Below, in pieces: positions 1,725 through 4,536 of a stretch of 64,000 nt of DNA. Position 1 is the first letter of the stretch. Each line of letters opens with the position of its first letter. The translations under genes and the position numbers were made by a program. Origin of the DNA: Anaeromyxobacter oryzae (GTDB lineage: Bacteria > Myxococcota > Myxococcia > Myxococcales > Anaeromyxobacteraceae); assembly GCF_023169945.1 (NCBI RefSeq), contig NZ_AP025591.1, positions 6,556,501 to 6,620,500 on the forward strand, read 5' to 3'. Under the pieces are notes generated by a model that had not been told where the DNA came from, ran no database searches, and was given only the letters and a program-made list of their open reading frames with translations.

Positions 1725-2129
1725 TCACCCGAGCCACGGCTTCGCGTCGCCGTCGAACGCCGCCGGGAAGTGCTCGATGCGCGGTCCGGCCTCCCCGAAC
1801 GTCACCGCCACGACGTCGAACCGGATGGCGCGCTCGAGCGCGTCGTGCCGTGCGGCCCAGTCGGTCGCGGCCTTGATGACGCGGCGGCGCTTGCCGCGGT
1901 CGACCGTCTCCTCCGGGCCGCCCTGCGCATCCGACGAGCGGCTCCGCACCTCGATGAAGCAGAGGACGTCTCCGTCCTCGCAGACGAGATCCACCTCCCC
2001 GCGTCGCACCGCGTGGTTGCGCTCCAGGACCCGCAGCCCGCGCCCGCGGAGGAAGGCCTCGGCGAGCGCCTCCGCCTCGCGCCCGCGCGCCCTCCGCCCG
2101 CCGTCGGCGTCCTCGCCGGCCGTGCTCAC
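1725..2129 (-). CDS. YraN family (UPF0102) nuclease-like protein
   Basis: The 134-residue product begins at a GTG (2129-2127) that overlaps the TGA of the upstream gene in a GTGA arrangement, which argues for translational coupling and fixes the start. It carries the restriction-endonuclease-like core of UPF0102: AEAFLRGRGLRVLERNH, then GEVDLVCEDGDVLCFIEVRSR, with the acidic E-x-D and E-x-R positions of a PD-(D/E)xK fold, and RIEHFPAAF near the end. Function in bacteria is not established; a Holliday-junction-resolvase-like nuclease is suggested by the fold. It sits directly before rsmI, the usual neighbour. Confidence 0.88.
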   Translation of the reverse strand: MSTAGEDADGGRRARGREAEALAEAFLRGRGLRVLERNHAVRRGEVDLVCEDGDVLCFIEVRSRSSDAQGGPEETVDRGKRRRVIKAATDWAARHDALERAIRFDVVAVTFGEAGPRIEHFPAAFDGDAKPWLG

Positions 2130-3988
2130 GCGGAGTGGTCCGCCGCCTCGCGGAAGGCGGAATCCGTCGTCGCGTGCACGATCTGGCCGGGCCGCGCGAT
2201 CTGCTTCAGGAACCGGGCGGCGACGCGACGCGCGCCGTCGGAGAGGCCCGCGAACGCCTCCTGGTCGAGGACCGCGACGAGCTTCCCCGCGGCGAGCGCC
2301 TGCTCGAGGAGCGCGAGCTTCAGCGCGACGTACACCACGTCCCGGTCCGCGGGCGGCAGAGTGAGCGCCGGGACGGGACGTCCGCCCGTGACCGCGTGCA
2401 CGCCGCCGCGATCGTCCACCTGCGCCGCGGTGATGCGCTGGAAGGTGAGCCCGGTGAGGAGCTGCGACGCCTTCTGCGCGACGGCGCGACCGGCGGCAGC
2501 CGGCGAGCCGCCGAGCTCCGCCGCGGCGCGCTCGAGCAGGCCTCGGAGCGGCTCCGTGCCCCCGGCCGCGGGCGCCACGGGCCGGGGCGGCGGCGCTGCG
2601 GCGGGCGGAAGCGCCGTCGCGAGCTCGCCCTCGAGGCGCTGGATCTCCATCTCGACCGAGCGGACGTCGCGGACGAAGCCGCCGACGTCGGCCGCCATCC
2701 GGGCCTCGAGCGCGCGTTGCGCCTCGTCGACCTCGACCCGCTCCTCGGCCGCGGCGCGGATCTCGGCCGACCCCTCCCACTCGGCGAGCCGCCGCCGCCA
2801 CTCGGCGACCACGGCGTCCGCGTCCGCGATCCGCCCGAGCGCCTCGCGGAGCTCGGCCGGGCTCCGGACCTCGATCGCCCGGATCGCGGCCCGGACATCG
2901 CCGGCGTCCTTCTCGTACTGCCCCTCGATCTTCTTCTCCCAGTCGTCGACGACCTTCCTGCGGCGCGCCACGCGCTCCCAGGCCTCGACGGCGCCGATCC
3001 ACCGCAGCGCGATCCACGCCGCGCCCCCGAACGCGGGGACGTCGAGGAGCGCGAGGTAGCGCGCCCCCGGCGCCACGCCGGACAGCGCGGCGCCGCCGAG
3101 CGCGAGCACGGCGCCCGCGCCAACGCCGCCCCAGAACAGCGGGTCCGTCCAGAGCGGGCGCGGCGCACCGCGCGCCTCCGCCTCGGCGAGGGCCCCGCGC
3201 TCGGCCGCGACCTTCGCGACGGCCTCGTCGTGCTTGGCGGTCGCCCGGTCGAAGGCCGCGAGCCGAGCCTCGGGGTCGTCGCCGAGGAGGGTGGCCGCGG
3301 CCGCGACGGGCGCGAGGTCGGCGCGGGCCGCCTCGGCGGTCTCGAGCCCGTCGCGCAGGTTCGCGCTGCCGCGGAGCGCCTCGTCGAGCTTGAAGGCGCG
3401 CGCCTGGAGGCCGTCGAGCTGGACCTGGAGCTTCTCGGCAGCTCTGGCCTTCTCGAGCTCGGCCTGGAGCTGAGCCAGGCGCTTCCGCGCCTGCTCCGGG
3501 CTGAGGGCCTGCCGCGCGGGGGCGAGCGAGGCGCCCCCGCCCACCCCTGAAGCGCCCTGCCTCGACGGCAGCTCGGCCGCGCCCAGCGCGAGCACGGCGG
3601 AGAGCCTGGCCGGCGGCGGCGCGCCGACGGTCTCGCGGAGGAACGCGGAGATCTCTGCGAGGTCCTGGGCGACGAGGGCGAAGGAGCGCTTCTCGGCGTC
3701 GAAGCGGTGGAGCTGCGCGCCGGCCGCGAAGTCGCGCACGAGCCGGTAGGTCACGCGGTCGTTGCCGACCAGCGTGAGCCCAGCGCGGAGGGCCGCGCCC
3801 GCGGGGCCGCCCGCCGCGCGCGGGAGCGAGTCGCCGTCGCGCGGATCCGGGTAGAGCAGCGCCTCCACGACGCGACGGAGCGTCGCGCCGTCGGCGGCGA
3901 CCACGTTGTAGCCGGGACGGAGCGTGGCGCGGCCGCCGGCCGGCGCCACGCCACGGACTCCCTGGGCTGCGAACTCGAGGAGGATCAC
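2126..3988 (-). CDS. Degenerate SMC/YhaN-like ATPase with coiled coils and a membrane hairpin
   Basis: GTG at 3988 is chosen because the protein then starts with VILLEFAAQGVRGV, the first strand of a RecF/SMC-type head; an ATG at 4090 would add an Arg-rich stretch that looks untranslated. The 620 residues read: N-terminal head half, coiled coil (about 165-260), a hydrophobic hairpin at about 283-330, a second coiled coil, and a C-terminal head half. The C-terminal part matches the YhaN/AAA_27 pattern: LPPADRDVVYVALKLALLEQ where LSxGTRDQ is expected, LVAVLDQEAF as Walker B, then IVHATTD. The Walker A site is not recognisable (NVVAADGATLR instead of GxNGxGKS). A role in DNA or envelope processes cannot be assigned. 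It is coupled to yraN. Confidence 0.65.
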   Translation of the reverse strand: MILLEFAAQGVRGVAPAGGRATLRPGYNVVAADGATLRRVVEALLYPDPRDGDSLPRAAGGPAGAALRAGLTLVGNDRVTYRLVRDFAAGAQLHRFDAEKRSFALVAQDLAEISAFLRETVGAPPPARLSAVLALGAAELPSRQGASGVGGGASLAPARQALSPEQARKRLAQLQAELEKARAAEKLQVQLDGLQARAFKLDEALRGSANLRDGLETAEAARADLAPVAAAATLLGDDPEARLAAFDRATAKHDEAVAKVAAERGALAEAEARGAPRPLWTDPLFWGGVGAGAVLALGGAALSGVAPGARYLALLDVPAFGGAAWIALRWIGAVEAWERVARRRKVVDDWEKKIEGQYEKDAGDVRAAIRAIEVRSPAELREALGRIADADAVVAEWRRRLAEWEGSAEIRAAAEERVEVDEAQRALEARMAADVGGFVRDVRSVEMEIQRLEGELATALPPAAAPPPRPVAPAAGGTEPLRGLLERAAAELGGSPAAAGRAVAQKASQLLTGLTFQRITAAQVDDRGGVHAVTGGRPVPALTLPPADRDVVYVALKLALLEQALAAGKLVAVLDQEAFAGLSDGARRVAARFLKQIARPGQIVHATTDSAFREAADHSA

Positions 3989-4128: not shown

Positions 4129-4536
4129 CTACGCCGGGGTCGGCGTCGCAGGGGCGGCAGGCGCCGCGGCGCCGTCCGTCGGACCGCGCTCCTCCTGATG
4201 GAGGCGGGCGGCCTTCCCCTGCAGCTCGCGGAGGTAGTACAGCCGGGACCGGCGGACCTCGCCGTGGCCGACGACCTCGATCTTGTCGATGCGGGGGCTG
4301 TGAACCGGGAACATGCGCTCGACGCCCACGCCGTAGCTCACCTTCCGCACGGTGAACATCGAGGAGCCGGGCTGGCCCTTCCGGTAGGCGATCACGACGC
4401 CCTCGAAGACCTGGATGCGCTCCTTGTCGCCTTCCTTGATCTTCGTGTGGACGCGGACCGTGTCACCCGACCGCATCTCGGGGAGGTCGTTGCGAACGTA
4501 CTTCGCCTGGATGTCGGCAATCGCCTTGCGCAGCAT
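4129..4536 (-). CDS. rplS: 50S ribosomal protein L19
   Basis: The 135-residue product contains the L19 core ([19 protein letters not shown], then [20 protein letters not shown]) and ends in a 20-odd residue Ala/Pro/Thr tail absent from the roughly 115-residue standard protein. L19 sits at the 30S-50S interface. It is the last gene of rpsP-khpA-rimM-trmD-rplS and follows trmD by 15 bases. Confidence 0.97.

Follow-up and report, generated by a model that had tools for sequence, protein, structure and literature searches.

What does a protein do that is laid out like a Rad50- or YhaN-type ATPase but lacks the motifs with which such a head would handle ATP? The question is raised by a gene of 620 codons in a 64,000-nucleotide stretch of the Anaeromyxobacter oryzae genome (contig NZ_AP025591.1, positions 6,556,501 to 6,620,500; hereafter the window). 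An initial annotation, made from the sequence alone, had described the product as an SMC/YhaN-like ATPase that has lost its Walker A and signature motifs and carries a membrane hairpin. The reading we favor, with a probability of about 0.6, is that the protein is a membrane-tethered pseudo-ATPase scaffold.

Both lobes of the head were recognized by profile comparison. When a profile of 32 family members was matched against PDB sequences, the top matches were Rad50 ATPases (5f3w, 1.7e-9; 3qkr, 6.5e-9; 3aux, 9.7e-9; 3qf7, 1.1e-8), and the alignment with 5f3w contained both lobes in order, with five residues missing in the query opposite the Rad50 GSGKS. The 5f3w value refers to the whole sequence; the C-terminal lobe (C-lobe) stretch alone gave 2.2e-6. 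Profile-profile comparison (HHalign) with 12 YhaN-like proteins of the same phylum put the match probability at 98.7% for the C-lobe and at 89.7% for the N-terminal lobe (N-lobe); the values rose to 99.1% and 97.4%, respectively, once family members from outside the order (Myxococcales) were added.

An AlphaFold model based on six close sequences had a mean predicted local distance difference test score (pLDDT) of 68.7, with good arms, a fair C-lobe, and a poor N-lobe. The C-lobe of the model superposed on Rad50 (1f2u_D) with a Z score of 9.9 and a root-mean-square deviation (rmsd) of 3.2 Å over 121 aligned residues, the target having 142. Many rows of the VIA list for the whole model, including the top ones, were unrelated coiled coils matching the arms, and only head rows were used. 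When the N-lobe was folded alone, all 50 listed VIA rows were Rad50, SMC-type, or RecN heads; the best had a Z score of 7.2 and an rmsd of 5.4 over 108 aligned residues, none reached a Z score of 8, and Foldseek returned no match for the N-lobe model at 0.001. These Z values are modest, and it is the consistency of the N-lobe list that carries the argument. To this extent the fold comparison bore out a Rad50-type head, and the head halves, the coiled coils, and a Walker B-like VAVLDQEAF were found in the family order that the annotation had given. The two lobes are in order around a coiled coil, as in a Rad50/SMC-type head, with less support for the N-lobe than for the C-lobe. Very probably, the protein is a Rad50/YhaN-type head without ATP binding.

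The losses in the ATP site are shared within the order. The P-loop position reads GYNVVAADGATLRRVV in the window protein; in the alignment, the Walker A place is GYNVVAADGATL in the window protein. Members of the large family f6 have GYLVLKPPTAEVSPL there, and one f5 protein (L053) has GLNAVVGAPANG, which resembles a remnant. Near-full-length sequences from the order were compared as 64 rows (75 loci minus 10 fragments and minus L011, whose score and length equal those of L003); these still include near copies, and one gene is present twice (L031 and L068, both from genome G110). The strict motif GxxxxGK[ST] occurs nowhere in any of the 64, and relocation of the P-loop within the protein was rejected on that count. 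The signature is also degenerate: an SGG-type signature was found by pattern in none of 56 aligned rows, the P-loop-bearing f13 relatives described below included, and no SxG was visible by eye in the window protein (LPPADRD at this place) or in nine f13 proteins. The claim that both motifs are lost has therefore stood up.

Walker B tells a different story. The window protein retains the aspartate (D575), and the acid is kept in 30 of the 31 representatives by which the 64 order rows entered the combined alignment (18 D and 12 E; the other has G); the residue after it is D in 23 and E in 6. Four YhaN-like proteins printed for comparison have the signatures LSRGTREQ, LSDGSRDQ, or MSDGTRDQ and the Walker B strings VDDIL, MDDVL, or LDDVL. 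Because YhaN-like proteins themselves show D-D, this pair looks inherited, a family trait rather than a loss specific to this protein, and the loss would be that of Walker A and of the S-x-G of the signature. A one-residue insertion at Walker B of the window protein (LDQEAF) is absent from all 55 other aligned rows but does occur in L007. Q602, which precedes the last strand, is conserved in 98% of the 56 rows.

Relatives outside the order were sought with a divergent member and then with L121 over 50 genomes, and the family was found in 28 of these. GK[ST] is present exactly at the gap position in nine of the 28 genomes and absent from 19. These nine comprise every f13 genome of the set and none from another family; homologs with an intact P-loop thus carry it in the same place, never elsewhere. 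Their P-loops include GGPGSGKT, GGSGSGKT, and GPSGAGKS, and the strict motif is matched in seven of the nine. The outside-order loci numbered 37, from which nine second copies and three split or edge frames (L151, L153, and L156, none with a P-loop) were left out. Four of six f13 proteins tested passed the Pfam AAA_23 cut-off, whereas AAA_27 listed only L132 of the six, at 14.8 bits against a cut-off of 22.

Since the family is homologous to P-loop ATPases, the change at Walker A is a loss rather than a gain. A branch with support 100 separates the f13 proteins from the rest, and a tree built without the Walker A columns requires one change of state. Both this tree and one rooted on YhaN leave the base open, so a single loss and several losses cannot be told apart. 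Two f10 proteins (L125 and L141), which by kinship belong to the class of the window, group with the P-loop clade in the gene tree (support 94), and the P-loop place of L125 has its full length with altered letters (PTPGQPPL). Two other outside-order members, L126 (G169) and L143 (G155), lie in open frames of 1048 and 986 amino acids; the profile match of L126 is interrupted by a long insert, with hmm 467 falling at residue 558 and hmm 471 at residue 902.

The second defining feature is a hydrophobic pair between the arms, at residues about 283–302 and 311–331, the first of which is a single helix (283–302) in the AlphaFold model. As the annotation had proposed, it occupies the place of the hinge or zinc hook. 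Two hydrophobic 17-residue segments (Kyte-Doolittle mean at least 1.0) were found in all 64 order rows, both reaching at least 1.3 in 60 of them, and in every row the 17-residue mean of the better segment was above that of any 19-residue window in the rest of the protein. The pair was also present in all 25 outside-order proteins tested. Order rows have on average 1.66 K+R in the 15 residues before the hairpin and 3.78 in the 15 after it, and this richer C-terminal flank fits a cytoplasmic descending arm. Taken together, the sequences make it likely that the protein is membrane-anchored, and the earlier description of a non-ATP-binding, membrane-anchored protein is well supported at the sequence level.

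Mean pairwise identity is highest, by a small margin, in the hairpin (0.321), followed by the N-lobe (0.311), the C-lobe (0.293), and the arms (0.260 and 0.231). The second membrane helix (residues 310–321; window 3026–3061) has a conserved R-[YW]-x-A-L-L-D-I-P-A-F-G, with the Asp in 37 and the Pro in 37 of 56 rows; Asp and Pro within a putative membrane helix would be unusual for a mere anchor. In the window protein, the arms are acidic (pI 5.5 and 4.9) and the head lobes basic (9.5 and 9.8). Central hydrophobic segments also occur in seven of the 12 YhaN-like proteins, five of the seven being near relatives of each other, and the hairpin may therefore predate the 620-residue family. These seven (L110, L111, L112, L115, L116, L118, and L119) are long YhaN-like ATPases with an intact P-loop and strong central segments, two in six of the seven.

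The closest known family found is, on sequence, YhaN (AAA_27), of which the 620-residue protein is not filed as a member. YhaN was represented by 12 long proteins of the phylum that match PF13514, which we take to be YhaN (COG4717); 11 were used in the tree, where a branch with support 100 separates our gene family from these 11 rows. The protein is like YhaN in lobe order, in the profile-profile match of both lobes, and in its Walker B D-D, and like part of the YhaN-like set in its central hydrophobic segments, which are not a curated family criterion. It is unlike YhaN in length (620 against 1010–1271 amino acids, or 898 for L108, which is cut by its contig) and in lacking Walker A and the SxGT signature; the signature region reads LSxGTRxQLxLxxRLA in four YhaN-like rows and LPxxDRDLxYLALRLA here, and the AAA_27 profile does not match the window protein. 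With Rad50/SbcC it shares the head fold, both lobes in order, and an antiparallel coiled coil, but its arms are short, it has no ATP motifs, a hydrophobic hairpin is found at the apex, the 620 residues contain no cysteine and hence no CxxC zinc hook, and neither Mre11 nor SbcD is among the neighbors named. E. coli SbcC, as a single sequence, gave a weak match: 6% with the combined profile and, when the P-loop clade was used, 87% on the N-lobe. Weak matches (1e69, 0.015; 5xei, 4.8e-4) place the protein in the same superfamily as SMC, from which it differs by having a hydrophobic hairpin instead of a hinge and no ATP motifs.

Positions of the gene, its parts, and its neighbors in the window
Feature	Residues	Window position	Strand	Evidence
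Whole gene, membrane-anchored YhaN/Rad50-like pseudo-ATPase (predicted)	1–620	2126..3988	(-)	Open reading frame, family, dN/dS
N-terminal head lobe	1–140	3569..3988	(-)	VIA rows; HHalign 89.7; low-confidence model
Place of lost Walker A, GYNVVAADGATLRRV	26–40	3869..3913	(-)	Aligned with GYSVFVGGPGSGKTSIV of a P-loop-bearing relative
Ascending coiled-coil arm	163–278	3155..3502	(-)	AlphaFold helices 164–223, 226–235, 239–272; pLDDT 78–95 by ten-residue block
Hydrophobic hairpin	283–340	2969..3142	(-)	Two hydrophobic segments in 64/64 + 25/25 rows
Descending coiled-coil arm	341–459	2612..2968	(-)	AlphaFold helices 316–372, 377–406, 408–435, 442–459
C-terminal head lobe	480–620	2129..2551	(-)	Rad50 fold Z 9.9; profile matches
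Degenerate signature LPPADRD	544–550	2339..2359	(-)	Aligned with LSRGTRE / MSDGTRD of YhaN-like proteins
Walker B-like AVLDQEAF	572–579	2252..2275	(-)	Aligned with LVVDDILV of YhaN-like proteins
yraN (UPF0102)		1725..2129	(-)	PF02021 E 1.9e-24; 4-base overlap with gene
rplS (ribosomal protein L19), upstream neighbor		4129..4536	(-)	PF01245 E 8.5e-47; linked in 73/74 loci

In the open reading frame of the window, the gene runs from a GTG start at 3988 to a TGA at 2128–2126, and it is the one match to the 620-residue protein in its own genome, a single contig of 6.72 Mb. Its stop shares four bases (GTGA, 2126–2129) with the likely GTG start of yraN. Another gene, rsmI, also lies downstream in the window (PF00590, 2.9e-27), and a scan for promoters and terminators found none. 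In many bacteria rnhB sits between rplS and yraN; here it is elsewhere in the genome (L159, G000:C1:3319004-3319534), and the idea that RNase HII was lost to make room was rejected on this ground.

A search with the window protein matched 137 of 145 order genomes, its own included. For the class, which adds two further genomes to these, the count was 139 of 147. A chance open reading frame or antisense artifact was rejected because of this distribution. Of the eight order genomes without a match, two from genus g37, with reduced genomes, are 99% and 94% complete, one is 96% complete, and the other five are 61–88% complete. Three genomes of genus g37 (G125, G126, and G127), of 2.1–2.7 Mb, have yraN and not the gene. 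Identity to the window protein is 26–63% across 31 aligned relatives, and the five named relatives that were found are four Anaeromyxobacter and one Myxococcales metagenome-assembled genome.

Family databases give the protein no name. Neither Pfam nor NCBIfam recognized a family in the window protein (best E 0.3 and 1.1, respectively). Among nine relatives of the order, Pfam listed SMC_N in four, weakly (0.0062–0.093), below the 40-bit cut-off and amid unrelated weak matches, and among five relatives NCBIfam listed Rad50/SMC models for the three with a P-loop, far below cut-offs and largely on the coils. Literature searches aimed at the protein returned no paper on it among titles and abstract openings, and those on YhaN and on competence, of the same depth, nothing about the 620-residue protein. 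A known defense protein was also rejected: the window protein matches only LmuB, at 0.58. The P-loop relatives match many SMC/AAA-type defense models (L133, mad3 at 2.6e-10; L121, LmuB at 8.1e-8), with most of these matches lying on the P-loop stretch or on the coils. The protein is probably a working structural protein that these databases have not named.

Upstream of the gene, on its strand, lies rplS at every order locus with room except L056 (73 of 74), and 57 of 64 loci with room have yraN as the next gene downstream in that orientation; these locus counts are not all independent, as the same genome may be entered twice. At the remaining seven loci (L037, L038, L039, L041, L043, L045, and L074) no yraN was found downstream, and the gene still adjoins rplS; at L037, rsmI follows in place of yraN. 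One alternative is that the protein is a membrane scaffold specifically for YraN and so serves to recombine incoming or damaged DNA, in the way that SbcC/Rad50-type proteins pair with a nuclease subunit. This idea draws on the adjacency within the order and on the overlap in the window, and five of the eight order genomes without the gene also gave no yraN match (four of these five are only 61–87% complete). YraN is placed in the PD-(D/E)XK nuclease family (PMC1189080), and PMC12455585 cites it as a helicase-associated nuclease of natural transformation. This would make a membrane scaffold for YraN an appealing idea. The annotation had tied the gene to YraN by overlap, and within the order the tie holds. 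Outside the order it is weak: yraN lies downstream on the same strand in no more than 8 of 28 genomes, and rplS immediately upstream in 21. Six of the nine P-loop genomes have the gene and yraN on one contig, always on opposite strands. Moreover, yraN is present in 27 of 28 outside-order genomes with the gene, in 17 of 22 without it, and in three of the eight order genomes without it, so yraN does not depend on the gene and the tight link is mainly a feature of this order. In many bacteria rplS and yraN are near each other anyway. We regard a role specific to YraN as unlikely. The steadier neighbor, rplS, could instead point to a membrane role tied to the ribosome or to translation. However, rpsP-rimM-trmD-rplS is an old operon in which a chance position can be held by co-transcription, no sequence feature pointing to RNA or ribosomes was noticed (no test was aimed at this), and we find this improbable.

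A head with non-canonical nucleotide binding, or the inactive half of a heterodimer with a P-loop-bearing partner, would account for the conservation of Q602 and of the Walker B acid in most rows, and inactive halves are known among ABC-type proteins. Against it stand the loss of Walker A in all 64 rows, the degenerate signature in every aligned row, and the variation of the Walker B acid itself among D, E, and G; in its own genome, AAA_27 had no match at E 0.001 among the 15 of 91 candidates scored, a search that does not cover SbcC or SMC partners. This we judge to be distinctly unlikely. A gene decaying on its way out would fit the degenerate catalytic motifs and the eight genomes without a match, but retention in the other 137 and dN/dS values of 0.09–0.44 in seven pairs (Nei-Gojobori script) leave this barely credible, and it was rejected by the constraint. 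Several observations also weigh against the membrane-tethered pseudo-ATPase scaffold that we prefer. The N-lobe piece alone scores 7.5 bits in the PDB profile match, and its models are poor, with pLDDT mostly below 50 in the whole model and a mean of 61.5 when folded alone, so the structure leaves room for an unusual nucleotide site. Membrane insertion of the hairpin is argued from hydropathy only. The hairpin loop is short (2–12 residues) and, with a mean of 1.08 K+R, no sparser in charge than the N-terminal flank, so the charges leave the orientation unsettled. The failure of the yraN link in the P-loop clade and at seven order loci, together with the presence of yraN where the gene is absent, counts here too: no partner is established, and the best-kept neighbor, a gene for a ribosomal protein, gives no hint of a role with DNA.

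The membrane-tethered scaffold can nevertheless be drawn in outline. The protein is a short, degenerate relative of the YhaN/Rad50 branch of SMC-type proteins. An antiparallel coiled coil brings its two head lobes together, and the apex, which is the zinc hook in Rad50 and the hinge in SMC, is here a hydrophobic hairpin of two helices. The most likely place of the apex is the inner membrane, with the acidic arms and weakly basic pseudo-ABC head on the cytoplasmic side. With the P-loop and signature gone, the head should not run an ATP-driven cycle of opening and closing; we infer instead a passive tether or scaffold of fixed length that would keep a cytoplasmic partner near the membrane. That partner could be DNA, or a DNA enzyme such as YraN, and any choice between them would be a guess. 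The sequences themselves show the homology, the layout, the missing motifs, the constraint, and the gene order; membrane insertion and its orientation, the lack of ATP binding, and the structural or scaffold role are inferred from them. We also advance, tentatively and with more doubt than confidence, a broader proposal: that throughout the order an SMC/YhaN-type ATPase has become a mechanical part that is embedded in the membrane and works without ATP; that f13, with its P-loop kept and signature lost, is a living intermediate within the phylum; and that the hairpin, with its conserved Asp-Ile-Pro, may be the functional site and more than an anchor, the protein thereby coupling something in the membrane to cytoplasmic DNA or a DNA enzyme without ATP.

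SMC, Rad50, and YhaN are thought to act through ATP-driven engagement of their heads. With no ATP site, this protein should work in a different way from YhaN and Rad50. Its gene, which has no family name in Pfam or NCBIfam, is present in nearly all of the order genomes that were searched, those of Anaeromyxobacter among them. A constrained and nearly order-wide family that has lost the ATP site and retained a membrane hairpin suggests that the architecture can be useful without its motor, and f13 against the rest offers a natural before-and-after pair for what the ATP cycle does.

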